Assembly (NCBI GenBank): GCA_902775555.1
Contig: CACYMQ010000001.1
Coordinates: forward strand, 1-36,325
DNA: 36,325 nt
Source of the DNA: an uncultured Lachnospiraceae bacterium
GTDB lineage: Bacteria > Bacillota > Clostridia > Lachnospirales > Lachnospiraceae
Direction: 5' to 3'
A program made the translations under genes and the position numbers. The notes below the pieces were generated by a model, which worked only from the letters and a program-made list of their open reading frames with translations, was not told the origin of the DNA and did not search any database. This document shows, piece after piece, positions 3,293-33,319 of the stretch (the first letter of the stretch is position 1; each line of letters opens with the position of its first letter).

Positions 3293-4309
3293 ATGAGTAA
3301 AAAAGCAAAAGCCCTCCTCATCATCAGTTCTATAGCCCTGACACTCATCCTTAGTGGTAGTATCACCTGGCTCATTTATGGACGAAACACCGTTGAGTCA
3401 GCTTCCCAGTCTGACAATGCCGTACTGACCAACAAAACTACCGAATCAATTTCTGAAGATCCGAACATCTGCCTTCAAACCGAAGTCGAAACGATTGCCT
3501 CCACGATTGCTGAAAATATCATTACAACCGAAGCAATTGAAGCGATTCCTGTTCAATCAGTAGAAGCTGCTGCACCAGATCATGATCCCGATGTTCTTAT
3601 CGCTGATAACAAGCCAAAGCCTGTAACAGCAAAGGCTCCGGAAAAATCTAATACTGTTGATGCCCCGCCTTCAGCCGACCCGGTTCCTGAGAAATTGACT
3701 GATCAACCAACTGAAAAAGCTGACGACGACGTTCCAAAAAAGACGGAAGGTACCCCATCAACAAATAAACCTTCCAACACTGAAAAGGCCAAGGTCTCAA
3801 CCAGCTCAGATGTTACAAAACCAGAAACATCCCATACCACAAAAACAATTGAGCCCGTAGAGGAGCAGACAACAACGAAGACAATTAAAGATTCTACTGA
3901 GTCACCGGTCACTGATCCGCCAACAGTCAAAACTACTGAAAAGACTACCGAAAATACCACGGAAGCCCCGAAATGCAGTCACAACTGGGTTTGGGCTACT
4001 CATACAGAGACGAAAACGATTCCTGAAGTATCCCACGAAGAACCGGTATACAATGATGGCTGGGACGAAGCAGTCAAAGTAAAAAAGGTCTATTGTTCCG
4101 AGTGTGAAAAGATTTACGACACCAGCGAAGACTACTATGCCTATGACAAATGCCATGGCAGCTCAGGACTAATCACTGTAATCGATCATTATATCCACCA
4201 TGAACCGGAACTACTCTTCTATGACACCATCGTTGACGAACCCGAGCATGAAGAGACTGTCACCGTGAAGGACTATCAGTATTGTTCCATCTGCGGTAAA
4301 CGGAAATAG
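3293..4309 (+). CDS. Membrane-anchored Thr/Ser/Glu-rich protein with C-terminal Cys pairs
   Basis: The 338-residue product starts MSKKAKALLIISSIALTLIL (AAAGGAG site ten bases upstream). A basic start is followed by a hydrophobic helix (residues 7-29), which is either an uncleaved anchor or a signal peptide. Residues 35-220 are a low-complexity stalk rich in Thr, Glu, Lys, Pro and Ser (for example TTEKTTENTTEAP), typical of extracellular spacers. The C-terminal 110 residues form a compact domain with CSHNWVW, CSECEKIY and YCSICGKRK. These Cys pairs and the Cys-Ser-His motif suggest zinc- or disulfide-stabilised knuckles. No enzyme motif is seen. The gene is convergent with its neighbour, only two bases separating the stop codons. 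Its position beside a second secreted protein and a giant adhesin suggests a cell-surface cargo module. Confidence 0.7.
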   Translation: MSKKAKALLIISSIALTLILSGSITWLIYGRNTVESASQSDNAVLTNKTTESISEDPNICLQTEVETIASTIAENIITTEAIEAIPVQSVEAAAPDHDPDVLIADNKPKPVTAKAPEKSNTVDAPPSADPVPEKLTDQPTEKADDDVPKKTEGTPSTNKPSNTEKAKVSTSSDVTKPETSHTTKTIEPVEEQTTTKTIKDSTESPVTDPPTVKTTEKTTENTTEAPKCSHNWVWATHTETKTIPEVSHEEPVYNDGWDEAVKVKKVYCSECEKIYDTSEDYYAYDKCHGSSGLITVIDHYIHHEPELLFYDTIVDEPEHEETVTVKDYQYCSICGKRK

Positions 4310-10900: not shown

Positions 10901-13569
10901 ATCAGGTGATCGTCTGTCATCTTAGATGCATCATCGGTATCATACAAACCATAATAAGCTCCGGCAAACCCATTGGATGTAATTCCCTTCGTCCCATCCT
11001 TCTTAATTGAGGCATAGTACTCATAATGTTCATTAGTCCAGGTATGTTTTGCATCCTTGGCATGTGCTTCCGCATCTGCTTCTTTTTCATAGACATTCAC
11101 GGTATAGTACCCGGTAGACTTCGGCTCATAACGTTCGTTGGTCCAGTTCTCCTGTACCTCTACCTTCGGGGCCTCGGAGAATTTGCCAACCTTATAGGTT
11201 GCAATACCATCCGCGCCTGTCTTCAAAGCCTTCTTGGTCTCTGTTCCATTGACCTTTACATCGAAGGTGACATCCTTCATAGCTTCACCATCGTCGTTCT
11301 TCTTGTAAACTGCGATGTAGTATTCCTTTTCTGTGTCGTACGGAACCTTCAGATAGGTACCACCAATGAAGTTCTGCCAGTTGGAATGTCCGGAATAGGC
11401 ATTCTGATCTACCTCATCTGAACGATACGGCACCCAGATATACGTCTTGTTATTCTCTACAGTCACCTTGTAATTAGCATATCCTCTGGTATTGGTACTC
11501 GTGATCGGCAGCATGATCAGCTGTCCGTAAGCACCACGGGGAGACATATCCTTTGACTCTGTACAGAATACAGAGAAAGAATACAGGTCACTGTCTGTAG
11601 ATGTGATAACGCGGTAACCCTTGTTATACCAGTTATCTGTCCAACCGGTATTCGTTGTGTTGTAATCAGGATTAGAACCGTAGACTACAACATCAGAAGC
11701 CCCATTCTTTGTCGCACCAGATCCGTATGCATCCTTGAACTTGCCAGCCGGAAGTCCGGAAACGGTATTATCAACATTGAAATAGGTTCCACAGCTCTTG
11801 GTAATGGATGAATATGTCATTTCCGAGTCACCACTACCTGTCGGAAGCACACCGGACGCTGCATTAAATGTCCGGGACCCCAGATATGCCGTTGCACTTG
11901 CTGCATTCCGGTATCCGGCAAAACCATAATACTTGGATGTATTCGTGGCATTCACATAGATCGGGAATGCGATATAACTCGGCACATTGAACTTATATGT
12001 TGTACCGTCGATTTCTACACTGATTGCCTTCGATGTTGCCGCACGGGATACCGTGAAATCATCATCGTCATACATCAGCACATAATCATCTTCATCCAGG
12101 TCCGTCTGATCGTAGTTCAGCAGGACATCCGGATACTCAGTCAGCTTCTTATTTTCATCCAGACTGCGCACATACAGTGCAGCGAACCGGGCTGCTGCTT
12201 CGGATGTAGATGCACTGATCACTTCGTAATCTACATTCGTACCATAATTGGAATCCGAAAGACGGTCACCCTTCTCATTGGCTGCACCAATGATGTAGGC
12301 ATCCTTTACACAACCGGGGATGAAATACTTTGCATTGGAAGAATTATTGCCGGCTGCACCGACCACAATAACTCCTTTACTGATAGCTTCTTCGATAGCC
12401 AGGACTACTGCCGAATTCTCTTCGGAACAGTTGGCAGTAAGAGACAGGCTGATCACATCTGCCTTGCACTCCAGAGCATACTGGATTGCAGCGTAGATAT
12501 CGGATGCCTGGCCTTTACCGGATGCATCCATTGCCTTGATGGAAAGCACCTTTGCGCCCGGGTACTCTTCCCTGATATAGTCGTACATTTTGGTTCCATG
12601 GCCGTTATCATCGGAATCAGAGCCTCCCAGCACAGAGACAGACCCTACAAGCCCGGATCCGTTTACACCCGTATCGATCAGGGCGATTGTTCCTGCCGGA
12701 ACGGATCGGAGAGCAGAAAGATCATTCAGGTTTGCCAGCGCATCATCGCCTTCATTAAGGTTGGAAAGATCTGCACCGTCTTGATAACTCTCCTCTTCAG
12801 ATGCCTTTAGGTCATCCTCCGAATCATCAGAATCACCGGCTTCATCCTCTCCGGTATCTGCAGCTTCACTGTTCTCCTGCACGTTCTCATTATCCGCTAC
12901 TCGGAAGGTTATATTTGCCGAAACAAATTCTGCCTTGCCATAATAATAAGTGTAAGCATTCCGTGTTTCTTCAACGGTCGAATATCTGGTAAGATAGACG
13001 CCGCGGTACTCGGACAGAACCTCAGTATCCCATGTCAGGATTGACGGATCCTCTGTTCCGATCATCAGCTCACGTGAAGAGAAATCCACTCCGGAGATAT
13101 CCACACCGGCAACCTGCTCTGTAAAAGAAGGCTGTCTTTCCTGAATCTCCGTGCTTTCTTCTGTTTCTTCATCTTCGGTGGAAGCTTCCGACTCTGTGTC
13201 CTTAGTCTCCTCCGTGAATTCCGTCTGCTCTTCAGATACCTCTTCACTTTCAGTATCCTCAGTTTCAGCAGCATTATCTGCTGTATCATCTTCTGTCACT
13301 GCTTCAGAATCCTCTTCGGTTAGTGTTTCCGTTATTTCTTCCGGATCTTCGGATACATCCTCCGATGAATCCACTATGGCTTCATCGATTGTTTCTGATC
13401 CTCCTGTATCATCTTCAACCAGATCCTCTTCGGTCTGTGAATCTGCCGCCTGCTCCTCTGCCTCTGTCACCGATTCGACATCCTGCAGAAAACCCTGCAT
13501 TGAGTCAATAGGTGTTGCAGTAATGAACATGGCACCTGCAAGTAACGTTGCGATCATTCGTTTAAACAT
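4999..13569 (-). CDS. Giant cell-wall adhesin: subtilase domain plus SpaA/Cna-B and T-Q ester domains
   Basis: The 2856-residue protein has a signal peptide (MFKRMIATLLAGAMFITATP), then a very acidic Glu/Thr/Ser stretch (about 30-150). Residues 290-470 form a subtilisin-like domain with Asp299 in IALIDTGVNG, His324 in NGHGTK, oxyanion Asn408 in GAAGNNSS and Ser456 in ASTSEAAARFA, so the triad looks complete. A region at about 540-700 (YYGFAGYR to FCTESKDMS) resembles thioester-domain proteins. SpaA/Cna-B-like modules follow. Six T-Q ester (VaFE-like) modules are visible, the first near 1440-1590 and five more running through 2120-2815. Each has V-x-Y-x-N-L, a VVFE/VIFETLY/VAFETC strand and a closing D-x-x-Q-T-V. 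The C-terminus has QPQTGDD, a hydrophobic helix and KKRKLNKNM, a sortase signal with Gln in place of Leu. No sortase is in the window. It is likely a long covalently stabilised surface stalk with a processing or host-acting protease. Confidence 0.9.
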   Translation of the reverse strand: MFKRMIATLLAGAMFITATPIDSMQGFLQDVESVTEAEEQAADSQTEEDLVEDDTGGSETIDEAIVDSSEDVSEDPEEITETLTEEDSEAVTEDDTADNAAETEDTESEEVSEEQTEFTEETKDTESEASTEDEETEESTEIQERQPSFTEQVAGVDISGVDFSSRELMIGTEDPSILTWDTEVLSEYRGVYLTRYSTVEETRNAYTYYYGKAEFVSANITFRVADNENVQENSEAADTGEDEAGDSDDSEDDLKASEEESYQDGADLSNLNEGDDALANLNDLSALRSVPAGTIALIDTGVNGSGLVGSVSVLGGSDSDDNGHGTKMYDYIREEYPGAKVLSIKAMDASGKGQASDIYAAIQYALECKADVISLSLTANCSEENSAVVLAIEEAISKGVIVVGAAGNNSSNAKYFIPGCVKDAYIIGAANEKGDRLSDSNYGTNVDYEVISASTSEAAARFAALYVRSLDENKKLTEYPDVLLNYDQTDLDEDDYVLMYDDDDFTVSRAATSKAISVEIDGTTYKFNVPSYIAFPIYVNATNTSKYYGFAGYRNAASATAYLGSRTFNAASGVLPTGSGDSEMTYSSITKSCGTYFNVDNTVSGLPAGKFKDAYGSGATKNGASDVVVYGSNPDYNTTNTGWTDNWYNKGYRVITSTDSDLYSFSVFCTESKDMSPRGAYGQLIMLPITSTNTRGYANYKVTVENNKTYIWVPYRSDEVDQNAYSGHSNWQNFIGGTYLKVPYDTEKEYYIAVYKKNDDGEAMKDVTFDVKVNGTETKKALKTGADGIATYKVGKFSEAPKVEVQENWTNERYEPKSTGYYTVNVYEKEADAEAHAKDAKHTWTNEHYEYYASIKKDGTKGITSNGFAGAYYGLYDTDDASKMTDDHLIAVFQMDKDGYASELSGPTTSTVAGHTCKARLNYTEDAGWKVSRTVNGHTQYFICMGKDELTDKKMLTNTKFAYKELVAPDGYLSTEDPIPATITKLLSVPTTLTSTQIVNMIDEDWENNPTYIYLEKRSANSKCSDGNPNYSLKGATYKVFKTNAEATAAVSSRDFSKAIATLTVDEKGNSQVLNVTNWMTKNSKTGKIEKTTFYMVESLTGKGYELDTEVYHLDVTLANTEKNPATLKVTDEPVNDPIGVKISKKLADGTTQNIGVAGAQFTVKYYAISTDGTETFASLQSKKATLTETYTSDANGEFQIKHDTEHYPLGYLTIEETAAPASYAMEGATATAKGVTVPVKMCFKLLPNGNATDGYLPGKAYLVDEKGNYIAGSDGNKITAASIDSISNTPLTIFIDEIPKRGDLKIEKRGESDEPLANIRFEVKSEATGEVHYLVTDADGKVSTHKDYVAHATDTNKYDDKKVSYSGKAGVWFAMVGDKNHTQKVTADQGALPEGWYQVKEVDPQGHQKEEVIRVQVKDGQVANVYDSNRGDKKTYITNVKLPTLVSDAWIVLADGSLAKVASPEKDMTIRDQVSYTNLRFNTKYTLVGKLMEIEADGSLKEIAKASKSFETAKTYVRSMYECSGDLTLDFEHLDLSGSAGSGYVVFQYIYLGDEKNAYTSYKDVYADSNNDVVVFPLAHDDPKNEKQTVSFMGRLQVHKKLNIAGDTTGAVYEVKGADEDNKDFAKQLTIKKDTETDGYSDLLILPFGTYTVREVKVPDTGEWVIDPNVYTVEMAPNSGTVTIDSELKGKASDVTIESREIAKTFVTLTKSSSDPVFVEGNPNYSLAGAEYKLYADKAEADAALKSKDYTKAIGTFITDENGNADVIELTEAMNGADEKAFYVVESKEAKNYLRRAVVSETVVKKDNTRENPAKFEVTDEPVKIPVELLIEKVNQLSDSYNTAKGLSLAGAEFEITVSGDDITTIRKADALTVNVKKTTLKIEENAKHYSAKTGATLPIGYITVKETVIPEGFEKKGSVWHIGKRDVDIADTISLVLYGTYDEDHTTFTPVVYDPDQAKTAEELATKGHAVNDGAKVSLVAQNTELRGNLSLHKMDLSSGKPMEGVKFEVKNQETGEVHYIYTNADGIATTKAEKYVNENYYDQVSDYDGTIGTVWFGQGNDGVLPSKDGAAALPLGKYTVTEKRCKANKDYQMNPAQEVEITKDALYISIQNDEDGNLYNVPKPTFGTIATVIMGEDPGVKMVPADKGQTLVDAVNFSNLKVSTEYTLVGRVMQLDDQGNATPFLQNGTEVVVTKSFTTRDREASDKSDYCVCGTETMEFKDLDFTGLQDQKFVIFETLYLGDVVEGEALTNYQEASPESEDLFPIEHADPKDEEQTVYTPNGETEAEDVSGSKTVTYTETVTLIDHVSYKNLQPGREYQLTGTLYVKPEDAPENANYTTEDLAKMVLHDEKGNPVTATATFTAKEANGVVDVTFTFKASLLTKEVETIVVFEDCEDTRTGVKVFTHADINDKGQTVFHPEISTTAMDVNGRSELAHQSAKFYDVVSYDNLQPEKKYRLVGIAMDKKTGEELILNGKTVTAEQAFTTGAANKKNGAVKGEFKLEFTITEDMQADLAGKDMVIFETLYVQSGKDWRVAAEHKDLNDAGQELKVPTLKTTLMDQATKTHVAYPNQIVTLVDTVEYTNLIPGKKYTMEGTLMKQPKNGEAEEIFRDENKKPVTASKDFVASETGEGIVELTFTFNAKELFMEGKSVVAFETCSPEGDLIPVATHANIHDKDQTVDFPKVGTKASLVKKNVGKDTVTIEVTDQIMLTNLNTDYSYTAKGWLVDKDGNKVEVNGKTLEAEKTFKPENPNGSISVTFPQFTIGKYDSIKYVVYEEVYVNVHQEDGSIKQVLIGEHKDLKDANQTVSYSDHDQPQTGDDTPIAIFLGILVLAMAGIGVIIWKKRKLNKNM

Positions 13570-22650: not shown

Positions 22651-25560
22651 ATGAATGAAATGTCAATCGATCTGGAGACCTACAGCGACGTGGACATCTC
22701 CAAATGCGGAGTATACAAATATGCCGAATCAGATCAGTTTGAGATACTGCTCTTCGGTGTCTCCGTGGACGGCGGCCCTGTCAGGGTATATGACCTTGCC
22801 TGTGGGGAAAGCCTTCCGGAGGAGATCCTGGCGGCATTATCGGATGTAACTGTAACCAAATGGGCATTCAACGCCACCTTCGAGCGTATCTGTCTTTCTA
22901 ACTGGCTCCGTAAGCATCATCCGGGTTATTTCCGATCCTATGGATCTCCGGATGATTCCGTACAGAACTATCTGGATCCATCTTCTTGGAAATGTACTAT
23001 GATCTGGTCTGCCTATATGGGTCTCCCGCTCTCTTTGGAAGGTGTCGGAGCTGTCCTGAAGCTACAGGAACAGAAACTGAAGGAAGGCAAAGATTTGATC
23101 CGTTATTTCTGTACGCCCTGCTCTCCTACGAAAAGTAACGGTGGACGCACACGAAACCTTCCGGAGCATGCTCCCGAAAAATGGGAACTCTTCAAGAAGT
23201 ATAACCAGCGCGATGTAGAAGTGGAAATGCAGATTCATAAACGCCTTGCGAACTACCCTGTCCCGGACTCCATATGGACGGAATACCACCTGGATCAGGA
23301 GATCAACGATCGGGGGATCATGATTGACCGTACTTTCGTTGAACAGGCGATCCGGATTGACGAACGAGTCAGAAATGACCTGATGATCCAGATGCAGAGC
23401 CTGACCGGGCTGGAGAATCCCAACTCCGTTCAGCAGCTGAAAGAGTATTTTTTCCAAAACGGTCTTGAAATTGACAGTCTTGGAAAAAAAGAAGTTGCAG
23501 AAATGATAAAGACTGCCCCAGCTGACATTGCCAGAGTGCTTTCCCTCCGGCTTCAGCTTGCCAAAAGCAGTGTAAAGAAGTACCAGGCAATGATGAATGC
23601 GGTATGTGCCGATAACCGGTGTCACGGCATGTTCCAGTTCTATGGAGCTAACCGTTCCGGACGTTGGGCCGGTAGACTGATACAATTGCAGAACCTTCCC
23701 CAGAACCATATGTCTGATCTGGCAGAGGCCCGGGAACTGGTCCGTTCCGGTGATTACGATACTCTCTCACTCCTCTATGACGACATCCCGGATACGCTCT
23801 CGCAGCTGATCCGGACAGCCTTTATCGCCCGTCCCGGTTATAAGTTTATTGTATCAGACTACTCTGCCATTGAGGCCCGTGTCCTTGCTCATCTGGCGGG
23901 TGAAACCTGGCGGTCCAAAGTATTTGCTGAAGGTGGTGACATCTACTGTGCTTCCGCCAGCCAGATGTTCCATGTGCCGGTGGAAAAACACGGTGTAAAT
24001 GGTCATCTTCGGCAGAAAGGGAAACAGGCAGAGCTCGCATGTATTGCTGAAGGCGAACTTGTTCTGACTAATCATGGGCTTATCCCGATTGAAGATGTGA
24101 AGCTCAAAGATCTTCTGTGGGATGGAGAGTCCTGGGTGAAACATGAAGGTGTTATTTACAAAGGAAATGGTGAGGTGATTACCTATGAAGGACTTACAGC
24201 AACCAGAGACCACCTCGTCTGGGTTAAGGGGAAACCGCAGCCGATACAGTTTGGAATCGCCGCCTCCTGCGGCGCACATCTCCTACAAACCGGAGATGGT
24301 CGGAGAACGATTCGGATGGGTGGAAATCATCAGTCCGGAAAAACGCTGGAATCGGAACTGGAACCACTGTTATGTACTGACCAGATGTACCGGATGCGGT
24401 GCCATTCAGTGGCAGCTAAGAACCGCTTTAACATCTGGAAAGTCGAATGGATGCCAGAGTTGTTCACAGCCAAGGCTGATTCCAAAATGGCTGTCAAAGA
24501 GACTTACTGCTGCGAAACAGCGGTGCGAGAATCCGAGCGACAGGGACTACCACAATTACGGAGCAAGAGGAATTCAATTCATTTTTCCCAGTGTCCTGGA
24601 TGCAGGCTTGTATCTGATCAGGGAATTTGGTCTTCCGGATCGGAGGATGGAAATCGACCGGATCGACAGCAATGGAAATTATGCACCGGGAAATCTTCGT
24701 TTTGTTCCTCATCTGGTGAACTGTATAAACCAGCGGAGAAATGTACTGAGTCAGTTCAGACAGGTGTATTGGCCATATGCAAGAAGTGTTGTTATAAGAA
24801 AATTGTCATCCGGTCTGACACGGGAAGAAATCATCCAAAATGCGGAAACTGCAGTTATGGAAAAACGAAAAAACTGGAGAATCATCAGCGCACGTCTCGA
24901 CTTTATGATATACGAAATGCCGGAAGATATCATCGTTTTACGGTATCGGGAAAGCTTGTCCACAACTGCGGATATGGTGGCTCCGTAGGCGCACTGAAGT
25001 CCATGGGCGCAATCGAAATGGGTATCCCTGAAGAGGAACTCCAGGGACTTGTTAACTCCTGGCGGGACGCCAATCCGCGCATTGTCCAGTTCTGGTGGGA
25101 TGTTGACCGTGCTGTAAAGACCGCCGTCAAAGAACGCATCCAAACCGAAGTACGAGGGATCAGGTTCTTTTGCAAAAGCGGAATGCTTTTTATCCGGCTC
25201 CCCTCCGGCCGCTGCCTTTCCTATGTGAAACCACGCATCGGTGAGAACCAGTTTGGCGGAGAATCTGTTACCTACGAAGGTATTGGAACCACCAAGAAAT
25301 GGGAACGCATAGAAAGCTATGGTCCAAAATTCGTGGAGAACATCGTGCAGGCAGTCAGCAGGGATCTACTCTGTTATGCCATGCAGAATCTGAATGATTA
25401 CAGAATTGTTGGTCATGTCCACGATGAGGTGATCATAGAATGTCCCCAGGATGTTGATGTAGCATCGATTTGTAGTCAGATGGGCAGATCCCCGGAATGG
25501 ATGAAGGAAATCCTAATTCGCGGGGATGGATATGCTACCCCATGGTACAAGAAAGATTGA
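22651..25560 (+). CDS. polA-like: Phage family A DNA polymerase interrupted by an intein
   Basis: The start MNEMSIDLETYSDVDISKCG follows GAGG. The N-terminus holds a 3'-5' exonuclease motif (Asp-x-Glu in SIDLETYS) and later exonuclease strands. The polymerase domain shows motif A (FIVSDYSAIEARVLAHLAG), motif B beginning LRQKGKQAELA, and motif C (IVGHVHDEVIIE). Between ELA and CGYGGSVGAL, residues 464-772 form an intein (see its entry). The spliced product would be 463 plus 197, about 660 residues, normal for this phage polymerase family. The insertion is within motif B, the dNTP-binding helix, so unspliced protein should be inactive and replication should depend on splicing. The gene ends the rightward arm, convergent with the defence operon. 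Confidence 0.92.
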   Translation: MNEMSIDLETYSDVDISKCGVYKYAESDQFEILLFGVSVDGGPVRVYDLACGESLPEEILAALSDVTVTKWAFNATFERICLSNWLRKHHPGYFRSYGSPDDSVQNYLDPSSWKCTMIWSAYMGLPLSLEGVGAVLKLQEQKLKEGKDLIRYFCTPCSPTKSNGGRTRNLPEHAPEKWELFKKYNQRDVEVEMQIHKRLANYPVPDSIWTEYHLDQEINDRGIMIDRTFVEQAIRIDERVRNDLMIQMQSLTGLENPNSVQQLKEYFFQNGLEIDSLGKKEVAEMIKTAPADIARVLSLRLQLAKSSVKKYQAMMNAVCADNRCHGMFQFYGANRSGRWAGRLIQLQNLPQNHMSDLAEARELVRSGDYDTLSLLYDDIPDTLSQLIRTAFIARPGYKFIVSDYSAIEARVLAHLAGETWRSKVFAEGGDIYCASASQMFHVPVEKHGVNGHLRQKGKQAELACIAEGELVLTNHGLIPIEDVKLKDLLWDGESWVKHEGVIYKGNGEVITYEGLTATRDHLVWVKGKPQPIQFGIAASCGAHLLQTGDGRRTIRMGGNHQSGKTLESELEPLLCTDQMYRMRCHSVAAKNRFNIWKVEWMPELFTAKADSKMAVKETYCCETAVRESERQGLPQLRSKRNSIHFSQCPGCRLVSDQGIWSSGSEDGNRPDRQQWKLCTGKSSFCSSSGELYKPAEKCTESVQTGVLAICKKCCYKKIVIRSDTGRNHPKCGNCSYGKTKKLENHQRTSRLYDIRNAGRYHRFTVSGKLVHNCGYGGSVGALKSMGAIEMGIPEEELQGLVNSWRDANPRIVQFWWDVDRAVKTAVKERIQTEVRGIRFFCKSGMLFIRLPSGRCLSYVKPRIGENQFGGESVTYEGIGTTKKWERIESYGPKFVENIVQAVSRDLLCYAMQNLNDYRIVGHVHDEVIIECPQDVDVASICSQMGRSPEWMKEILIRGDGYATPWYKKD
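24040..24966 (+). mobile_element. Intein in DNA polymerase motif B (309 aa)
   Basis: The first residue is Cys464 (TGT at 24040). Block A reads CIAEGELVLTNHGLIPIEDV; block B reads GLTATRDHLVWV with the Thr-x-x-His pattern. The C-terminal blocks read YDIRNAGRYHRFTVSGKLVH, then Asn772 and +1 Cys773 (TGC at 24967). All residues required for standard splicing are present: Cys1, block B His, His-Asn at the end, Cys+1. Blocks A/B and F/G are in the same frame. The roughly 200 residues between them (about 549-752) resemble no endonuclease in this frame and are Ser/Arg/Cys-rich, because the endonuclease is encoded here in another frame. Confidence 0.92.
24185..24988 (+). CDS. HNH-type homing endonuclease nested out of frame inside the intein
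   Basis: The frame is shifted relative to the polymerase frame. From the ATG at 24185 (GAGG site nine bases upstream) it gives 267 residues. Family similarity begins at an internal ATG at 24296, MVGERFGWVEIISPEKRWNR, the usual opening of phage HNH endonucleases of this group. Cys pairs follow (CTGC and CQSC, a zinc-ribbon-like DNA-binding part). Then come RCENPSDRDYHNYGARGIQF and the core MEIDRIDSNGNYAPGNLRFV (from residue 155), ending NQRRN. Such enzymes make a break at a target allele so that their host intervening sequence is copied. The C-terminal tail overlaps intein blocks F/G and ends at a TAG just inside the C-extein. Expression would need internal initiation on the polymerase mRNA. 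It is well conserved in motifs, so probably active. Confidence 0.85.
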   Translation: MKDLQQPETTSSGLRGNRSRYSLESPPPAAHISYKPEMVGERFGWVEIISPEKRWNRNWNHCYVLTRCTGCGAIQWQLRTALTSGKSNGCQSCSQPRLIPKWLSKRLTAAKQRCENPSDRDYHNYGARGIQFIFPSVLDAGLYLIREFGLPDRRMEIDRIDSNGNYAPGNLRFVPHLVNCINQRRNVLSQFRQVYWPYARSVVIRKLSSGLTREEIIQNAETAVMEKRKNWRIISARLDFMIYEMPEDIIVLRYRESLSTTADMVAP

Positions 25561-25561
25561 G

Positions 25562-25591
25562 AAAAAAGGCGGCTCCGCTGTGGAGTCGCCT
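25562..25591 (-). terminator. Terminator of the defence operon
   Basis: On the minus strand AGGCGACTCC pairs with GGAGCCGCCT (one mismatch, five-base loop) and is followed by six T. It lies just after the Res stop at 25597, between two convergent genes. Confidence 0.8.
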
Positions 25592-25596
25592 CTCGC

Positions 25597-28110
25597 TTAA
25601 TCTTCTCTCTGTTCAAATTCCTCAAATATCCTGTCAAGCTCAGGATTTGACGTGATCCCTCGCACCCTGTTTCTTACCTCAATATCATTCATATCAAGTC
25701 TGTAGAAATGATCCTTCATGTCCTCACCTTTATGCTTACGGATAAGTTGGATCCTTCCGAACTGATCATGATGTTTATCAGCGAACTTTGCCAAACCTAC
25801 TGCCTTTGGATAATTGTCTTTCCTGCTGGAATCATGCGGTTCCAAAATATCAAAAACATATCCTAAAGCATCCGCTCTTACAACAATCATATCAGGAAAC
25901 ATTGGTGTACTCACCCCATTCACTTCGTAAGGTATCTCCAACGACCAACTCTTTCTGTCAAGATTTCTGAGCCAGCATACAGCACCATTAGCCAGTTCTT
26001 CCTTGATCAATGGTGCCTCCCAATCATTCAGATCAGCACGGAAATTACCATCTTTATCAACGAATAAGTGCTTATCATAACTCTCAGCATCTTCAGACAC
26101 GGTAAAATCAATCACTTTAGGCAAACTCCATGCAGTTTCAACCGGAATTGCCGATCCCTGAATCATTCTGTTATAATCGGATTTTCTTGCATCCGGCAAT
26201 GTTCTTAATGCAGGCTTATTGTCCTTATACAAGCTCAGGAACATCTTTTCAGCGTACTTTGAAAGCCGTTCCATAGCATCCGCATTATTGGCAATCGAGA
26301 TGACTTCAATCTTTACATCAATGTGATCCTCGTCCCCGTGTTTTGCCCAGTAATCAACATTCAAGCCTTCACCAAGTATCTTTCCTGCCTGATCAAAATG
26401 CCTTGATATATCATATTCAGATGTCTGTATCGTCTGAGCATTCTCATCATACACATAGGTCGTATCACCATAATCGAACGTTAGGGTATCAATCGACAGA
26501 CCTGTAAGATTCTCTTTTATCTCATCAAATTTACCCTCAGATTTGATCCGCTCCACCTCATCATCCATCTTTGCAATGATGGAATTTTTTGCCGTTCTTT
26601 GCGCTGCAGCATCAATGCCGTCACGTGTAAGCGCACGTGCCAGCTGCATATACAGCTTGATATATGGCTGCTTCCTGTTCGTGTCAATCTTATATGTCGC
26701 AAGATCATCCATCGTCATAAACACATCAGCGAATGCCGGATTTCTTTCGAGAGTTATAAGATTCCTGTTTGTACCAACCTCACCAGGATATACAGCTTCA
26801 TCATCCCTGAGTTTTTTTATAATTCCTTCAGCCGTCTTTTTATCATAATGTGGCAGGAACAAGCTAACATCATTAAGCGAAGCATATGCTAATATACGCC
26901 TTGCCAAGGGTGTTCTGATCATTCGTCCCAAAAGCTGAGCAATATAGGTTCCATCCTGAGCCCCGCGGAATGACATCATAGTTTCCGCACGTGGACAATC
27001 CCATCCGGTAGACAGATTCATTTTGAAGAAAACAACCTTTATTTCTTTATTTTCTTCTATCCTTGAAGCCTCCACCTGGCGGATAACCAGATCTCCGATT
27101 GTAATTGCCCCATAATCGTTAAAAGTATGAACAACCTCTCCCGTATTAAGGCTTCTACCCAATTCTTTTTCAATCAGATCTACGCATTCCGAAAGATTAG
27201 TATGCGTAGCTTCTCTTTCGTTTCCATCTTCCACCTGAATAACGAGAATCGGATTGATATATTCCTCATGCTCTGGATCACTGTCACTATATTCCTTCCA
27301 GTATGCACACTTGTCGATCCAGTTTCTGACAGCACTCTGAAATGTGGTCATATCCGCAGAAATAGCTGTGTCGGGTATGTTCAAAATAATACGGTCTTTC
27401 AATAATCCAGACTCTCTCACGTCATCCGGCGATACCGTTACCTTCTGTACTGTTGATGTAGTGCCTTCGACCAGCTTGTTAAACTTCTCCGGCGTTGCCG
27501 TCACACCTATCACAAGCGGCATAGGGCATAACCCATCAGCTTCGCTGCCTTTGATAAATTTCTGCATGATCGATTGTGCCTGGCTTTCCGCATTGGCTGT
27601 TGTAGCAGTTCCCCTATGGGCTTCGTCGATCACCACATAAAGCTGTTTTGGCATCTGTTTCGCCGTATTTGTAATTGTCTCCCAAATCGTATATTGCCTC
27701 TTATCAGACTTTGCAATAAGCAGCTTATCGGATCCCAGCTTCTGAGTGTTAAGGAAATATATATGCCCCTTTTGGAGATATTCCGCATTGAATGTAGAGC
27801 CTATCGTTACAAGATCATGCACATGAATCTTATCAGATTTGCTCTCAATCTTAAGCCTTGTCTGTTCATTCAGTTCCGGCGAATCTGACAGCCATATAAA
27901 AATAGAATCCGGATCCGCCGTAACTTCAGCCGTACCATAAAGTATATTTTCAAAAAGCGTAGTCATTATGATGGTCTTCCCTGCACCAGTTGGTGCGGAA
28001 AAAGAAATGACCTGAGGCTTATTCTCTCTCCACAAAAGATGTGCATCGTTGATTGCAAGCTGCAACTCACTCAGGGCATTCTCCTGAAACGTAAACAACC
28101 GATCTCTCAT
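25597..28110 (-). CDS. res: Type III restriction enzyme Res subunit
   Basis: The 837-residue product begins MRDRLFTFQENALSELQLAI. It is a superfamily 2 helicase with Walker A SAPTGAGKT (residues 38-46), motif II VVIDEAHRGT (near 158-165), motif III VIGVTATPEKF, and a late LLGRMIRTPLARR motif VI. The C-terminal region contains PDMIVVRADALGYVFDILEP near residue 740-757, the place of the nuclease domain in type III Res proteins. The usual Glu-x-Lys reads Ile-Leu-Glu-Pro-His, a form I associate with one Res subgroup. With Mod it would cut DNA carrying two unmodified, oppositely oriented sites after ATP-driven movement. Its start overlaps the mod stop by four bases. It is the last gene of the defence operon. 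Confidence 0.88.
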   Translation of the reverse strand: MRDRLFTFQENALSELQLAINDAHLLWRENKPQVISFSAPTGAGKTIIMTTLFENILYGTAEVTADPDSIFIWLSDSPELNEQTRLKIESKSDKIHVHDLVTIGSTFNAEYLQKGHIYFLNTQKLGSDKLLIAKSDKRQYTIWETITNTAKQMPKQLYVVIDEAHRGTATTANAESQAQSIMQKFIKGSEADGLCPMPLVIGVTATPEKFNKLVEGTTSTVQKVTVSPDDVRESGLLKDRIILNIPDTAISADMTTFQSAVRNWIDKCAYWKEYSDSDPEHEEYINPILVIQVEDGNEREATHTNLSECVDLIEKELGRSLNTGEVVHTFNDYGAITIGDLVIRQVEASRIEENKEIKVVFFKMNLSTGWDCPRAETMMSFRGAQDGTYIAQLLGRMIRTPLARRILAYASLNDVSLFLPHYDKKTAEGIIKKLRDDEAVYPGEVGTNRNLITLERNPAFADVFMTMDDLATYKIDTNRKQPYIKLYMQLARALTRDGIDAAAQRTAKNSIIAKMDDEVERIKSEGKFDEIKENLTGLSIDTLTFDYGDTTYVYDENAQTIQTSEYDISRHFDQAGKILGEGLNVDYWAKHGDEDHIDVKIEVISIANNADAMERLSKYAEKMFLSLYKDNKPALRTLPDARKSDYNRMIQGSAIPVETAWSLPKVIDFTVSEDAESYDKHLFVDKDGNFRADLNDWEAPLIKEELANGAVCWLRNLDRKSWSLEIPYEVNGVSTPMFPDMIVVRADALGYVFDILEPHDSSRKDNYPKAVGLAKFADKHHDQFGRIQLIRKHKGEDMKDHFYRLDMNDIEVRNRVRGITSNPELDRIFEEFEQRED

Positions 28111-30224
28111 CCTAAGTTCCTCCTGCCACCGATACTAAAATTATCTACATAATCCCTGTAAAGCTGATACGTACAATCAGCCTTGATACTTTCGTTCATT
28201 TCCCTGAAGGCTTCATCAGAATTTGTAACCAGATATACGGTTTTTATTCTTTCATCGCGGTTCACTTGATTCGAAAACTCGCCAAATTTAGTTTCATCAA
28301 CCAAAACTGCAAGTTCATTCTCCGGGCGGATTAGCATATCAGGATCTCCTGCATCATCTTCTATCTCAGGTCTTACTCCTTTCGCTCCCGATTTTAACCA
28401 CAGTAAAGGAAGTATCTGCTTAAACTGTCTTCCAAGCGATACACTGTTCTTATCGACAAAACCAAGTCTGAAGTATTCAACATTTGCTTCAAAACCGTCA
28501 CTCAACCGCCTGTTCTCATCATCAGAGAAGAATCCATATTCACCCTCCAATTCTTCTCCATCCTCACGTTTTCCAATGATGGTATATTTTGTTCTCGGCC
28601 AGGTGACAGCACGGCAGATACCGTTCGACTCCCACTTTTCACTTCCGGGTGTTTCACCAGCTTTAAGCAAAGCCTTTGTCTGCTTCTTTGAAAGTTCATT
28701 ATTGGTCACGATGATACATCTTCTATTATATCCATCCTGTTCATTAAGCAGGTTGACAGCATTGAGAGTGGTTCCACTTCCGGCAAAGAAATCAAGCACA
28801 ATAGAATCCTCTTTTGTCGCTATCTTTATAACTTCCGCAATTAAGTCAATCGGTTTCGGATACGGAAACGCCTTTTCCCCAAAAACATCATCAATCTGTG
28901 ATGTTCCTTTTGATGTATAAAAAGCCTTTTCGTTCCATATAGTTGGAACATCAAGCCCAACAGTAGTGTTTTCCCCAAAAATGAGAGTCGGCTTGTTTTC
29001 TTCCGTTCCCAAAACTTCAAGTTTACCGCTCTTGATCTTTTTTATAACACCATCAGGAAGATACTGAATGCTATACTCATTGGGATTCTTCTTAGACTTG
29101 TTTACACTTACTTTTATATAGCCTTTTTCCCAGTCTCCCAATAGCCGATCAGAAACGAGCCTCCAAACACATTTGTCACCCTTGCTGGTAACAGGCCATA
29201 CCGCCGCACACCCCTCCGGTGCTTCCTTGTAATCATATTGAAATTCATCCAGTTCCCCAGAATAGATCCCACTATCAACACGTTCTGTAAGTGATCTCCC
29301 ACAGCCAACGATGCACATAGTATCCTTGTCCACGAATATCGGGTATGTCTGATTCGGACGTTGTGTTTGATCAAATGTCGCCAATGTCAGCCCCTCAAAA
29401 GGCGTTCTGCTTTTTCCACCTGCAAATTGAATTGATGTAGCCTTAAAATCCATAGGAACAACAAATACAAGGTATTCCTGTAAATAATTAAATCCGCCCG
29501 AAGGCTTTCCCCCGGATGTCTGTACTGTTACTGCCACAACCTGTTTTCCGGGAAAAAGCTCTTCACAAAGCAACACCAGTCTGTGTACTTCCTGATATCC
29601 TATACTTATTATCAAGGCTCCCTGATCACTCAGTATCTTTCCTGCAAGCTGTAATCTCTTCTTCATCATAGATAGCCACTTGCTATGAGACCAGTGATCA
29701 GATGAATCTACAAAAGCATCATTATATTTCCAGTCATCGGTTCCGGTATTATAAGGCGGATCGATATAAATGCAATCCACCTTTTTCGGATACAAGTATT
29801 CCAAAAGCTGCAAAGCATGATAATTATCCGCTTCTATAAGTGTATGCCACAATGGAGAATCCTCTGCATTCTGAACCTTATCTATCGGTCTGAGGACAGG
29901 GAATATAGCCTCTCCAAACAACGCCACTGCTACAAGGTCCTTCACAGGTATTTCCGCCACATCCCCAGAAGCCCTATTCTTACATACCGCAATATCCTTT
30001 TTGATGTTTACAACAGTATAAACATCGCCGATGTTGCCTTTTCTCTTCGCAACATTCACGCCTCTCTTGATCGAATGACCATATAATGCGGTACATTCCG
30101 GTATATGTTCTTCAAAGACCAGTCCAAATTTTTTGTCTTTCGTAACATTCTTCACTTCCTGCTCTAATCTTTCCCTTAAAGCAGGATCCGATACCTGTTT
30201 TATAAGCTCATGTATCGCAGCCAT
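28107..30224 (-). CDS. mod: Type III DNA methyltransferase Mod subunit
   Basis: The 705-residue product begins MAAIHELIKQVSDPALRERL behind AAGGAGG. Motif IV DPPYNTGTDDW (about residue 152) precedes motif I LDFFAGSGTT (about 475), the beta-class order of N6-adenine methyltransferases such as type III Mod. The region between the two motifs is the likely target-recognition segment. It starts only nine bases after the stop of the ABC-type ATPase gene, so the two systems are on one transcript. It would methylate the element's and host's sites and specify the recognition sequence for Res. No repeat tract suggesting phase variation is seen in it. Confidence 0.9.
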   Translation of the reverse strand: MAAIHELIKQVSDPALRERLEQEVKNVTKDKKFGLVFEEHIPECTALYGHSIKRGVNVAKRKGNIGDVYTVVNIKKDIAVCKNRASGDVAEIPVKDLVAVALFGEAIFPVLRPIDKVQNAEDSPLWHTLIEADNYHALQLLEYLYPKKVDCIYIDPPYNTGTDDWKYNDAFVDSSDHWSHSKWLSMMKKRLQLAGKILSDQGALIISIGYQEVHRLVLLCEELFPGKQVVAVTVQTSGGKPSGGFNYLQEYLVFVVPMDFKATSIQFAGGKSRTPFEGLTLATFDQTQRPNQTYPIFVDKDTMCIVGCGRSLTERVDSGIYSGELDEFQYDYKEAPEGCAAVWPVTSKGDKCVWRLVSDRLLGDWEKGYIKVSVNKSKKNPNEYSIQYLPDGVIKKIKSGKLEVLGTEENKPTLIFGENTTVGLDVPTIWNEKAFYTSKGTSQIDDVFGEKAFPYPKPIDLIAEVIKIATKEDSIVLDFFAGSGTTLNAVNLLNEQDGYNRRCIIVTNNELSKKQTKALLKAGETPGSEKWESNGICRAVTWPRTKYTIIGKREDGEELEGEYGFFSDDENRRLSDGFEANVEYFRLGFVDKNSVSLGRQFKQILPLLWLKSGAKGVRPEIEDDAGDPDMLIRPENELAVLVDETKFGEFSNQVNRDERIKTVYLVTNSDEAFREMNESIKADCTYQLYRDYVDNFSIGGRRNLG

Positions 30225-30233
30225 AATTCCTCC

Positions 30234-31880
30234 TTACGCTTGTGTTGCCACCTTCAGATTGCTCCAATCTATTCCGAATAGTGGCTGATCCTTTGACAAC
30301 TGGATTCTCGTGGTACCGTTTAATATTTTGTTTGCATTTGTTGTAGTCGAATCCGGCTTATCAAATGCGATGAAAATCTGCTTGCTGCTTTCCCCGTATA
30401 ATTCAAGGATATGCTCTAATTGCAAATCTCCCAAACTCTTCAAGATGTTTGAATCATGTATCAAGGCTGGAAGCGGACACAACTGTAAAAGACTTAAATC
30501 ATACAATATCATGCTCTTAAAAGCAGCACCCTCACTTGTATTTCCCGGTGTTTGAAAATCAATATTTTTATCCTCAGAAATTTTCAAAACAGGATCTGTT
30601 TCACCCTCTTCGGTAACAAACGCATTCAAATCATGCATCCTATCGTTAATATCCTTAACAATCAGAGCAAGATCCTTTGACTGCTCATTAAACAACTGAT
30701 TCAGCCTTCTTACAGCTTGCTCTCTGTTTTTCTGCAATTCCCTCTGTCGAATCAACTCGTCATTTAGCGCTCTCAATCGGTCAATGCTCTTCGATATTTG
30801 AACACACTGAGACAAGACATTTTCCGACATTCTTTTTGCCATACCCGAATCCAGAATTTTTTCCTTAAGCCGCTCTATCTCTTTCTCACAGTGTTCAATG
30901 GTGGGCTCCAGTCTGTCTATCTCCGCAGTCAATTCAGAATTGAGAATTTTTCGGATATTTTTATGAAATTCTCCTATTTCTGAAAATGCCCGCATATCAA
31001 TTCCAGGAAAAAATTCCTGTAATGATCTGAACTCTTCCTGAGAATCGTATCCATTCAGATTCATTCTATCCTTCAAAGCATTGACCTGTAACCTGAGCTT
31101 ATTTCTTCGATTCACCAATCCCTGCAATTCCTTACGCATCTGATTTGCGCGGTCATATGCCTTTTCATCAAACCCCATCACGCCCATTTGCGCATTATCG
31201 CTATCCTGCATCAATTCAGTCAGCCTCTGTTCAAGACTTTCGATAGATTTCTGATTACTCTCAATTTTTGATGTATCAACAGGCTGCTTCTTTTGGCCTC
31301 TAAGCTGTGAAGCCTTCACACCAAGCTCTTCTTCCATAGCCTTCAGAGATACCAATATTTTGTTATAGCCAAATAGTGCCAGCAGAAAATCAACCGCTTT
31401 CTCATCCTGCTCCCTAGGCTGAATCAGCAACGGATATCTTTCTAGTGTATTTTCTCTCCCATAATATCTGAAGAAACGGCTGCATATCTCGCCGAATTTA
31501 ATCCCCGGACGGTCAACTTTATACTGTTCCTGTAGAAACAATCTGTATTCATCAAGAGGCATTTTCTTGATCAGATGCCCGTCCTTATCACAGCGGCAAA
31601 CTTCCTTCGTATCTGTCGGATCTCTGAAGAAATAATTCATAACGCCGTCAAATTCAAATGTGAAATATATGCTATGTTCACCGACATACCTTTTCAGTTC
31701 TCTCACATACGTTTTGTGATAATCGTCGCCTCCAAAAGCATAGTCAATTATCTGAAGCAGTGTCGTTTTCCCAATAGCATTGCTTCCGCCCGAACTCCCA
31801 AGAACTGTGTTCAGTCCTGGTTCAAAAGTTATTCTCTTGCACCGCTCCGTAAACTTATCACAGTATATCTCTTTCAACAT
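30234..31880 (-). CDS. ABC/SMC-like ATPase (DUF2326-type) of an ABC-3C-like system
   Basis: The 548-residue product begins MLKEIYCDKFTERCKRITFE. Walker A is GSSGGSNAIGKTTLL (about residues 28-42), as in DUF2326 ATPases. Residues about 185-410 form a long coiled coil with many Glu, Leu, Lys and Gln. The C-terminal head contains TSEGAAFKSMILYDLSLLQL (signature-like Ser region), LPALIHDSNIL (Asp as Walker B-like) and a final KPDSTTTNANKIL segment. The start overlaps the small middle component by 23 bases. Such ATPases belong to proposed three-component conflict systems, in which an ABC sensor controls partner proteins. The exact trigger and effector are not known to me. Confidence 0.75.
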   Translation of the reverse strand: MLKEIYCDKFTERCKRITFEPGLNTVLGSSGGSNAIGKTTLLQIIDYAFGGDDYHKTYVRELKRYVGEHSIYFTFEFDGVMNYFFRDPTDTKEVCRCDKDGHLIKKMPLDEYRLFLQEQYKVDRPGIKFGEICSRFFRYYGRENTLERYPLLIQPREQDEKAVDFLLALFGYNKILVSLKAMEEELGVKASQLRGQKKQPVDTSKIESNQKSIESLEQRLTELMQDSDNAQMGVMGFDEKAYDRANQMRKELQGLVNRRNKLRLQVNALKDRMNLNGYDSQEEFRSLQEFFPGIDMRAFSEIGEFHKNIRKILNSELTAEIDRLEPTIEHCEKEIERLKEKILDSGMAKRMSENVLSQCVQISKSIDRLRALNDELIRQRELQKNREQAVRRLNQLFNEQSKDLALIVKDINDRMHDLNAFVTEEGETDPVLKISEDKNIDFQTPGNTSEGAAFKSMILYDLSLLQLCPLPALIHDSNILKSLGDLQLEHILELYGESSKQIFIAFDKPDSTTTNANKILNGTTRIQLSKDQPLFGIDWSNLKVATQA

Positions 31881-32097
31881 AGTGCAGAAGGCTCCCTTCC
31901 TGAATCAGATCTATTTTTCTCAGCGCATATAAACAGTCAAGTGCATCCAACACCTCACTCATATTGTCCTTTCTGTCCGCCATTGATTCCAACAACTCAT
32001 TAGGAGTCATATCCTTCTCCCTTAGGATTGTAAGAATCTCTGGAAATCGGGCTATCACGCTTTTTGAATATGGCGTAACTTTATTTGGTAATCTCAT
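31858..32097 (-). CDS. Small middle component of the ABC-3C-like system
   Basis: I choose MRLPNKVTPYSKSVIARFPE at 32097, which has a GAGGTG site within the upstream gene, over 32121. The 79-residue product is a winged-helix-like small protein with helices LLESMADRKDNMSEVLDAL and a closing strand pair (KIDLIQEGSLLHYV). It overlaps the ATPase start by 23 bases and the stop of the upstream gene by 17, a tight coupling typical of subunits made in fixed ratio. Size, order and coupling match the middle component described for ABC three-component systems; sequence identity is not claimed. Confidence 0.65.
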   Translation of the reverse strand: MRLPNKVTPYSKSVIARFPEILTILREKDMTPNELLESMADRKDNMSEVLDALDCLYALRKIDLIQEGSLLHYVERDIL

Positions 32098-33319
32098 TGA
32101 ACACCTCACACCTCTGGACAAAGTAGGAAATGATTATACGGCAGGCTCTCTTATACTTATGCCCTGTTTTGTTATAAAGAGTATCTACCAGCATATTAAA
32201 TAGCTCTTCCTGCTCCATTCTTCCTTCAGCATCCTCAAACATACGGTGGACTCTTTTTGCAAATACATCTACATTTATACTGCTCTCACCTGCAAGGCGA
32301 TCCAAAATATCATTTACGCCCTCATACAAAGGTCTGACATCGTTCAGGATATCCTTCTTTAATCCGGGATCCATGATTTTATTCTCAACAGGTGTTGCTG
32401 ATTTCTTTAATTTTGTATCATCACTTTCTTCCAGCACACTTACCTCTCTGAGGATTTCTTCTATCTCGCGTTCTATTTCATTTCGCGCCATATCATCACG
32501 AACCATTGCGGCATCTCTTAACGCTTTCATTTCCTCAAACAAAGATGCTCTTTCATCATCTGAAGCTGCAAGGATCACACTCTCACAATCACCGCATACA
32601 ATAAATTCCTGATCTTTCATCTTTAATATGCGCGCATAATTGACATCTGTTCCTTTTCTATGAACCGCTAACGGTCTTCCGCACTTAACACAGGCACCAC
32701 CGGTATCCGTGTATAATGCCAATATATGAGCATCAGCAACTACTTCATCCGCTACAGTCCCATCCAGAACGAATCTGTCATTTACAACATTTACATCCCC
32801 GGCGTTAGCATCAAAAGACAAAATATAATCCTGAGTTATTTCAGCAATAGCACTTCCCAAACCACTCGCAGTATTGGAAGGATAGTTTATAGCATACAAA
32901 AACACGCCTGCCAGGAACTCCCCAAACACAAAGTAATTTCCTGCAACAATCTCTTCCTTTTTCTTACCGCTCACCAAATTAACCACGGTATCATTAAGAA
33001 TCGTCTCATCATTGTCAATAATATCCCTTATCGCTAGGACAATATTGGCTTTCTTGTTATTATCAAGGATCTTCAACAAATGCTCCTTAAAATACGTTGC
33101 AACATCGGCAGGGTTAGTGGTCGGTAATTTTGTCATCACGTTTCTTGGCGGATTGGCTTTGCCCTTAATAATACCGGAAGCCAAATTGTCGTCATCTCGA
33201 CGGTCATCATCAGGATCAATGGAAAGCAGCATGGTACCGTTAATCTCTTTCTGACTGGAGCTATTCGCTTTGCAATGTACTAAAACGGCTAACAATGAGC
33301 CTAAACACAGTCTTTTCAC
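32081..33319 (-). CDS. ABC-3C-like third component with central Cys pairs
   Basis: The 412-residue product starts at a GTG (MKRLCLGSLLAVLVHCKANS) with GGGAGG upstream. Residues about 40-200 are an alpha/beta domain without a clear catalytic motif. A central CVKCGRPL ... CGDCE arrangement (about residues 228-260) looks like a zinc-binding HNH-like or treble-clef module. A long acidic helical region follows (IEREIEEILREVSVLEESDD), and a helical C-terminal domain ends SYFVQRCEVFNEITK. Its place as first large gene, before a tiny protein and a DUF2326-type ATPase, fits the C-terminal-domain component of ABC-3C systems. It could be the effector. Function is inferred from context. Confidence 0.6.
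   Translation of the reverse strand: MKRLCLGSLLAVLVHCKANSSSQKEINGTMLLSIDPDDDRRDDDNLASGIIKGKANPPRNVMTKLPTTNPADVATYFKEHLLKILDNNKKANIVLAIRDIIDNDETILNDTVVNLVSGKKKEEIVAGNYFVFGEFLAGVFLYAINYPSNTASGLGSAIAEITQDYILSFDANAGDVNVVNDRFVLDGTVADEVVADAHILALYTDTGGACVKCGRPLAVHRKGTDVNYARILKMKDQEFIVCGDCESVILAASDDERASLFEEMKALRDAAMVRDDMARNEIEREIEEILREVSVLEESDDTKLKKSATPVENKIMDPGLKKDILNDVRPLYEGVNDILDRLAGESSINVDVFAKRVHRMFEDAEGRMEQEELFNMLVDTLYNKTGHKYKRACRIIISYFVQRCEVFNEITK

Follow-up and report, generated by a model that had tools for sequence, protein, structure and literature searches.

The window analysed here is a stretch of 36,325 nucleotides (nt) from an uncultured Lachnospiraceae bacterium (assembly GCA_902775555.1, contig CACYMQ010000001.1, positions 1 to 36,325 of the forward strand). 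Among its genes is one for a phage-type family A DNA polymerase that contains an intein, and within the DNA of this intein a second gene, HNH-type and homing-endonuclease-like, is read in a different frame. An earlier note, made from the letters of the window, had placed the splicing blocks in the polymerase frame and the endonuclease in another one, and this assignment is borne out by our coordinates (intein at 24040-24966, HNH open reading frame (ORF) at 24185-24988 in the +1 frame), as is the TGA that it reported in the third frame at 24378-24380. The features of the locus are listed below, with model confidence given as the predicted local distance difference test score (pLDDT); the polymerase frame is free of stops across the whole of 22651-25560.

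22651..25560, + strand: phage-type family A DNA polymerase precursor gene (PolA) with intein; 969 amino acids; PF00476 (E = 2.6e-22), phrog_17 (4.1e-143), phrog_10285 (3.1e-119)
22651..24039, + strand: N-extein, terminating in ...LRQKGKQAELA directly 5' of the intein
24040..24966, + strand: intein of 309 amino acids (polymerase residues 464-772), with Cys1, TxxH at 55-58, YD at 289-290 and His308-Asn309, then Cys+1
24040..24297, + strand: N-terminal splicing half, intein residues 1-86; pLDDT 89-94 up to residue 80, mean 62 in the block 81-90
24172..24179, + strand: Shine-Dalgarno-like GAGGTGAT, 5 nt upstream of the HNH ATG (24185) and within the intein coding sequence
24185..24988, + strand: overprinted HNH-type homing-endonuclease-like gene, 267 codons, +1 relative to the polymerase frame; phrog_374 (2.1e-25)
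24298..24873, + strand: intein-frame "linker", residues 87-278, the stop-free out-of-frame reading of the HNH gene; pLDDT <50
24386..24463, + strand: CxxC...CxxC of the HNH frame (C68, C71, C90, C93), probable zinc ribbon; four Cys in 37/37 representatives
24656..24730, + strand: HNH-like core, D158-R159...N170...N179...N182; D158, R159, N170 and N182 in 37/37 representatives, N179 in 36/37
24874..24966, + strand: C-terminal splicing half, intein residues 279-309; pLDDT block means 84-90 from residue 281
24967..25557, + strand: C-extein, starting CGYGG

Class 1 HINT inteins begin with Cys, Ser or Ala, carry a TxxH motif in block B, and end in His-Asn, with Cys, Ser or Thr at position +1. All of these landmarks are present in the window (CIAEGELVLT...TATRDH...YDIRNAG...LVHN, with C at +1), and among the 37 representative relatives defined below, Cys1, T55, H58, H308, and N309 are each found in 37/37, as is Cys+1. 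The insertion point, between ...LRQKGKQAELA and CGYGG..., lies in what we take to be the O-helix region of family A polymerases. The HNH gene starts in intein block B, and its stop codon (TAG, 24986-24988) falls 20-22 nt into the C-extein. The earlier claim that the endonuclease ends inside the C-extein thus holds for the window but not as a general trait, since the HNH stop lies past the end of the intein in only 17 of the 37 representatives.

Two reading frames kept open across relatives

Relatives were gathered by tblastn and pattern searches of phage records, IMG/VR contigs and genomes of GTDB species, mostly by homology to the HNH gene; whether the intein frame was open played no part in the retrieval. 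The 106 loci, including the window, contain many repeats of a single contig or strain and reduce to 76 distinct inteins; excluded were a copy of the window (L001), three cut or partial inteins (L033, L071, L081) and 13 loci of other HNH groups. The element is present in Streptococcus and Gardnerella phages and at loci of Lachnospiraceae, Ruminococcus, Peptoniphilus, Anaerococcus, Centipeda, Acidaminococcus, Allobaculum, and spirochaete and synergistete bins. The HNH relatives are 56-78% identical across most of their length, and the contig-end piece L033 is 94% identical. In 75 of the 76 distinct inteins, the length is divisible by three and the frame contains no stop, in agreement with the earlier proposal that this DNA is kept open in two frames at once, and 63 inteins are exactly 927 nt long. 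From these 63, 37 representatives at <90% nucleotide identity (median pairwise identity 66%) were used for the counts below.

Expected numbers of stops were obtained by shuffling synonymous codons. In the window alone, the intein frame, previously noted as stop-free across the endonuclease, has 0 stops over 194 HNH codons where 10.5 would be expected, and none of 1000 shuffles was stop-free. Across the 37 representatives, the stretch of 194 HNH codons flanked by the splicing halves contains 0 intein-frame stops vs 365 expected, with the third frame, a built-in control, containing 444 stops vs 422 expected. A stop in the intein frame needs an HNH codon ending in T before a codon beginning with AA, AG, or GA, and this combination is found at 0 of 2204 such sites vs 345 expected. 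The openness of the two frames is far from chance.

Divergence by codon position follows the same division. The intein third position diverges fastest over intein residues 1-60 (0.49-0.65) and again over residues 301-309 (0.47), and the HNH third position does so over residues 61-300 (0.32-0.66); HNH codon positions 1 and 2 are less divergent than position 3 over most of the overlap. Both frames are kept open and are under different selection.

We also considered whether the linker is selected for its amino acids beyond the avoidance of stops and found little support for this. Identity of the linker peptide to that of the window is 0.350, where synonymous shuffles kept free of stops predict 0.324 (mean z 1.14), and the mean z values for hydropathy (0.63) and cysteine count (1.23) are likewise small; shared ancestry could produce such an excess.

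Predicted structures and identity of the HNH-type gene

The AlphaFold model of the intein frame (33 sequences) shows order at residues 1-86 and 279-309 only, with pLDDT <50 at residues 87-278, the overprinted part. Foldseek assigns this model to the HINT fold: the gp41-1 intein (6qaz, E = 8.1e-4) is the sole PDB match at E<=0.001, and the next matches are also inteins, among them Npu DnaE (2.3e-3).

The model of the HNH frame (38 sequences) has a mean pLDDT of 79. Searched against viral folds, it gives 80 matches at E<=0.001 with template modelling (TM) scores near 0.3; the top match (1.1e-10), from Salmonella phage LPSE1, is to an uncharacterised protein, and the top named HNH endonuclease follows at 5.1e-10. 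PHROG profiles place the HNH frame in phrog_374, "HNH endonuclease" (E = 2.1e-25), and phrog_3377 (2.7e-15). Sequence searches of the PDB with two profiles gave best E values of 0.16 and 0.098. The four cysteines C68, C71, C90, and C93, which presumably form a zinc ribbon, are also invariant in 43 sequences of two HNH groups. A histidine conserved in 36 of the 37 representatives, His31, lies far upstream of the HNH-like core.

A probable internal start for the HNH gene

A Shine-Dalgarno match of at least 6 nt at proper spacing precedes the HNH start in 24 of the 37 representatives, compared with 6 of 461 control ATGs, these being ATGs of the same phase in the N-exteins of the same loci. The codons that create these signals in the intein frame are also unevenly chosen. 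The Glu codon within the Shine-Dalgarno sequence is GAG in 31/35 cases vs 15.2 expected from the exteins of the same genes, and the Tyr codon that gives rise to the ATG is TAT in 36/37 vs 19.6 expected. Codon choice thus appears to maintain a Shine-Dalgarno sequence and an ATG within intein block B, which points to internal initiation as the favoured route to a separate HNH protein.

A programmed +1 ribosomal frameshift out of the N-terminal half of the intein, which would yield the HNH protein as a fusion and dispense with internal initiation, is the alternative that survives best. The two frames overlap by tens of codons, making such a shift geometrically possible, and in six inteins the conserved start is not an ATG. 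Frameshifting would, however, not need the Shine-Dalgarno sequence and ATG that codon choice preserves; because these are maintained, we favour internal initiation and consider a frameshift improbable.

Probable mobility and asymmetric decay

An intein-free version of the polymerase is found in phage NatCom_43819 (71% identical over the matched parts, with the site uninterrupted), and the site is likewise uninterrupted in two genomes of the same genus (L125, L128). The pattern of the intein-free site, ELALGYGG or ELACGYGG, is matched by 5 of 10 loci examined. Four of these intein-free relatives read ELALGYGG; the fifth, L133 (Javan639), reads ELACGYGG, with the Cys that an intein requires at +1, which is possibly a scar of intein loss or of co-conversion.

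The identity of inteins and exteins was compared over 260 pairs, of which 10 with L069 were unusable because its C-extein is masked. Several pairs combine closely similar inteins with divergent polymerases: intein DNA is 100% identical in L110/L111 with C-exteins at 75%, 96% identical in L107/L110 with N-exteins at 71%, and 99.6% identical in L003/L018 with C-exteins at 81%. Near-identical inteins in divergent polymerases, together with intein-free relatives, are as homing predicts, and the sequences fit recent transfers.

Loss, where it occurs, falls on one of the two frames. Six distinct mini-inteins of 120-168 residues (L021, L022, L023, L074, L120, L122) contain little or none of the HNH gene, and in two further inteins (L018, L046) a stop interrupts the HNH frame; the intein frame is intact in each of these eight decayed cases, of 76. 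A shortened HNH ORF is also found in the inteins of L116-L118 (783-789 nt). Such asymmetric decay, in which the HNH gene is lost and the intein frame retained, is predicted by an essential splicing layer that carries a dispensable selfish one. The natural mini-inteins of L120 and L122 are no longer than 124 and 120 residues, respectively, yet retain Cys1, TxxH, and His-Asn.

The same interrupted or deleted HNH copies, and a catalytic histidine that is not evident, could be taken to mean that the endonuclease is a relic, its ORF persisting for other reasons in an intein that no longer homes. We regard this as somewhat less probable still than frameshifting, given the lower divergence of HNH codon positions 1 and 2 and the signs of recent transfer.

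The earlier note had proposed a two-layer mobile element in which a mini-intein was invaded by a free-standing endonuclease gene. Its two layers are supported by frame-specific divergence, stop avoidance, the internal Shine-Dalgarno sequence and start, linker disorder, mini-inteins, and homing signatures; the invasion by a free-standing gene is a part that we infer only.

Recurrence in two other HNH groups

The same arrangement was found around two further HNH groups. The group termed A2 comprises EBPR siphovirus 2, Pseudomonas MR14, Salmonella EnJE1, Sodalis SO-1, and relatives (best 80 of 232 viral loci), and the group termed A3 includes APSE-1 P46 and Caulobacter phage GB2A (best 80 of at least 581 loci). 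In A2, 79 of the 80 HNH genes are nested within a PolA ORF and read out of frame with it, at +2; the remaining one, L157, is at the end of a contig. In A3, 21 of 80 are nested at +1 (10 in PolA and 11 in helicase ORFs), and 57 are free-standing; of the remaining two, L280 has a short second open frame only, and L276 is an in-frame HNH-type protein with matches to HNH-type and unknown families only. Pfam searches of the A2 and A3 groups returned no endonuclease family. At four loci (L134, L153, L171, L211), phrog_93, "endonuclease", matches the intein frame including the linker and not the HNH frame, a name that may mislead annotation.

Over the middle HNH segment, host-frame stops number 0 vs 156 expected in 56 A2 representatives (third frame, 576 vs 608) and 0 vs 69 expected in 14 A3 representatives (third frame, 103 vs 93), zero counts that are partly obtained by construction because "nested" was defined via an open host frame. 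This effect hardly matters for A2, where 79 of 80 loci qualify, and it does matter for A3; single A2 loci may also be stop-free by chance (highest probability 0.34). A better control for A3 is provided by 50 free-standing homologues: in the phase that the nested genes keep open, they contain 481 stops in total, and none of them is stop-free.

The arrangement is recurrent, and it is more general than the earlier reader had thought. Overprinting is likely to be a general solution among the inteins of phage polymerases and helicases, with HNH-type endonucleases as a rule being separate genes laid over a mini-intein, established more than once (in three HNH groups and both alternative frames), and with a linker that mainly needs to contain no stops.

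Weighing the interpretation

Taken as a whole, the element is very probably a mobile intein that carries its homing endonuclease as an overprinted gene and not as a fused domain. Several observations weigh against this reading. The HNH frame has a single, insignificant match in Pfam (E = 0.12) and no family in NCBIfam, its model has no match among PDB folds at E<=0.001, the TM-scores of its viral fold matches are low, and no histidine is conserved within the HNH-like core among the 37 representatives. Because of this last point, the call of a nuclease, made in the earlier note and upheld by phrog_374, is based on profiles of protein families and on matches to viral folds. The Shine-Dalgarno match is shorter than 6 nt in 13 of the 37 representatives, it is weak in A2 (0-5 nt in 20 of 79 loci examined), and it reaches 4-6 nt in the 21 nested A3 loci as the best of several starts. 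Six of 43 HNH-bearing inteins (L035, L066, L091, L114, L116, L117) have ACG at the conserved start, so that the HNH gene in them must start elsewhere or not at all. In one intein (L036), a 1-nt deletion breaks the intein frame; L078, identical to it at 2899 of 2900 positions, is without the deletion. Finally, dual coding itself slows divergence and accounts for part of the gap between intein and extein identity, though not for 100% vs 75%, and for this reason only the extreme contrasts count.

The earlier note had also named findings that would speak against it, namely homologous inteins with the HNH domain in frame or a lack of HNH homology. Neither appeared: HNH homology is present, and no in-frame HNH inside an intein was found in the 76 distinct relatives or in the two other HNH groups (160 loci), with 422 phage records examined only partly.

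It is very unlikely that the insertion is an intron, of group I or another type, which encodes the HNH gene and in which the polymerase frame is open incidentally. Many phage introns carry HNH genes, and the corresponding genes of Sodalis phage SO-1 (gp38/gp39) are annotated as a "type I self-splicing intron". Against this stand the complete protein-splicing motifs, the HINT fold, and the 0 vs 365 expected stops. When 23500-25600 was searched with Rfam for a group I intron core (E<=5), the single match was weak and unrelated (U3, E = 0.92). A sequencing or assembly artefact, in which paired indels have shifted an in-frame HNH domain out of frame, is refuted by the comparison across 76 distinct inteins and has a negligible probability, since one 1-nt difference does occur (L036/L078) but the other 75, drawn from bacterial isolates, phage records, and metagenome contigs, agree.

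Other insertions and neighbouring genes

Two relatives carry a second intein-like insertion in the polymerase N-extein. The one in L120 (L120:2570-3485), labelled an intein from motifs seen by eye, is open in the polymerase frame only, the other two frames being rich in stops; in the other (L045:1980-3500) the frame has many stops, and the insertion is apparently decayed or itself interrupted. In L104 and L106, which are different metagenome contigs, the N-extein changes frame at the same place (near 3515, about residue 350), a shared real or programmed frameshift.

Adjoining the polymerase on the reverse strand (25597-33319) is a defence-like block with a ResIII restriction subunit, an N6/N4 DNA methylase, an AAA_23/DUF2326 protein, and a CTD11-domain protein, CTD11 being a domain of ABC-three-component systems. 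The window, which also holds phage replication genes, further encodes a surface-protein-like protein of 2856 amino acids with T-Q ester-bond and SpaA prealbumin-like domains (4999-13569, reverse strand).

Discussion

In the mechanism that we propose, ribosomes translating the polymerase would produce a precursor in which two intein splicing halves surround a disordered linker of ~190 residues, this linker being the HNH gene read in the wrong frame and tolerated as long as it is free of stops. The intein would fold round the linker and splice itself out of the polymerase. Other ribosomes would begin at the Shine-Dalgarno sequence and ATG in intein block B and make a separate HNH protein, and this enzyme would cut intein-free polymerase genes, into which the whole unit would then be copied. 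Splicing, internal initiation, and target cleavage are steps that we infer from sequence.

In canonical large inteins such as PI-SceI, the splicing blocks flank an in-frame endonuclease domain, and mobility depends on cutting of the empty allele. The endonuclease of PI-SceI is thus a domain of the intein polypeptide and continuous with its frame, whereas the HNH gene described here lies at +1 and is a separate overlapping gene. Another parallel is the fractured genes reportedly described by Dassa et al. in 2009, in which a free-standing endonuclease gene lies between the halves of a split intein. The placement of the endonuclease gene between two intein halves is alike, but there the intein is split and trans-splicing, whereas the one described here is continuous, its frame running through the endonuclease gene.

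Published hints of an out-of-frame arrangement also exist. In the available excerpts of a study of phage ShiLan (PMC11855218), a methylase insertion carries an out-of-frame HNH gene, the host frame is stop-free, and a disjunct distribution suggests homing; the host-frame sequence is described there as having no splicing motifs and is thought to remain in the protein. As in ShiLan, the HNH gene of our element occupies an alternative frame of an insertion that is kept stop-free in the host frame; unlike in those excerpts, the insertion here is an intein with complete splicing motifs and a HINT fold, in DNA polymerase genes (and, in a related group, helicase genes). A putative intein-encoded HNH gene out of frame in a brucellaphage terminase is mentioned in the excerpted text of PMC4422536, a phrase that describes the same architecture and stands there as a remark on one gene, with no comparative or selection analysis in that text. 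An announcement, again as excerpted, reports an out-of-frame HNH gene in a methylase (PMC12613952). Among the papers listed by a literature search that did not cover bioRxiv, none beyond these concerns an intein with an out-of-frame endonuclease, and the excerpts of PMC8425127, PMC3229294, and PMC6293099 hold nothing nearer; the preprint 10.1101/2025.01.02.630785 ("Actinobacteriophage Inteins ... Non-Canonical Architecture"), which the excerpts of PMC11855218 list as reference 7, may describe similar cases. The mobile intein as such is already known, and the out-of-frame idea has published hints.

By our own reading, two annotated phage loci share the overprinted architecture: Sodalis phage SO-1 gp38/gp39, in the +2 frame, and APSE-1 P45/P46, at a different insertion site, where P46 is annotated as a gene nested inside the polymerase without comment. 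Annotation can thus miss or mislabel such endonucleases, as a nested gene, an intron, or a hypothetical protein.

Inteins are usually described with the endonuclease as one domain of their polypeptide; in this element, splicing and mobility look like the work of two genes that share one stretch of DNA. Such a two-gene arrangement would account for the gain or loss of mobility by a mini-intein that need not refold as a fusion, and it offers a natural case of overlapping genes in which selection is separable by codon position. If the proposed splicing is true, these inteins are natural examples of splicing with a long unstructured insert in between, and if overprinting is general, a selfish gene imposes on itself the constraint of containing no stops in order to live within an essential gene.

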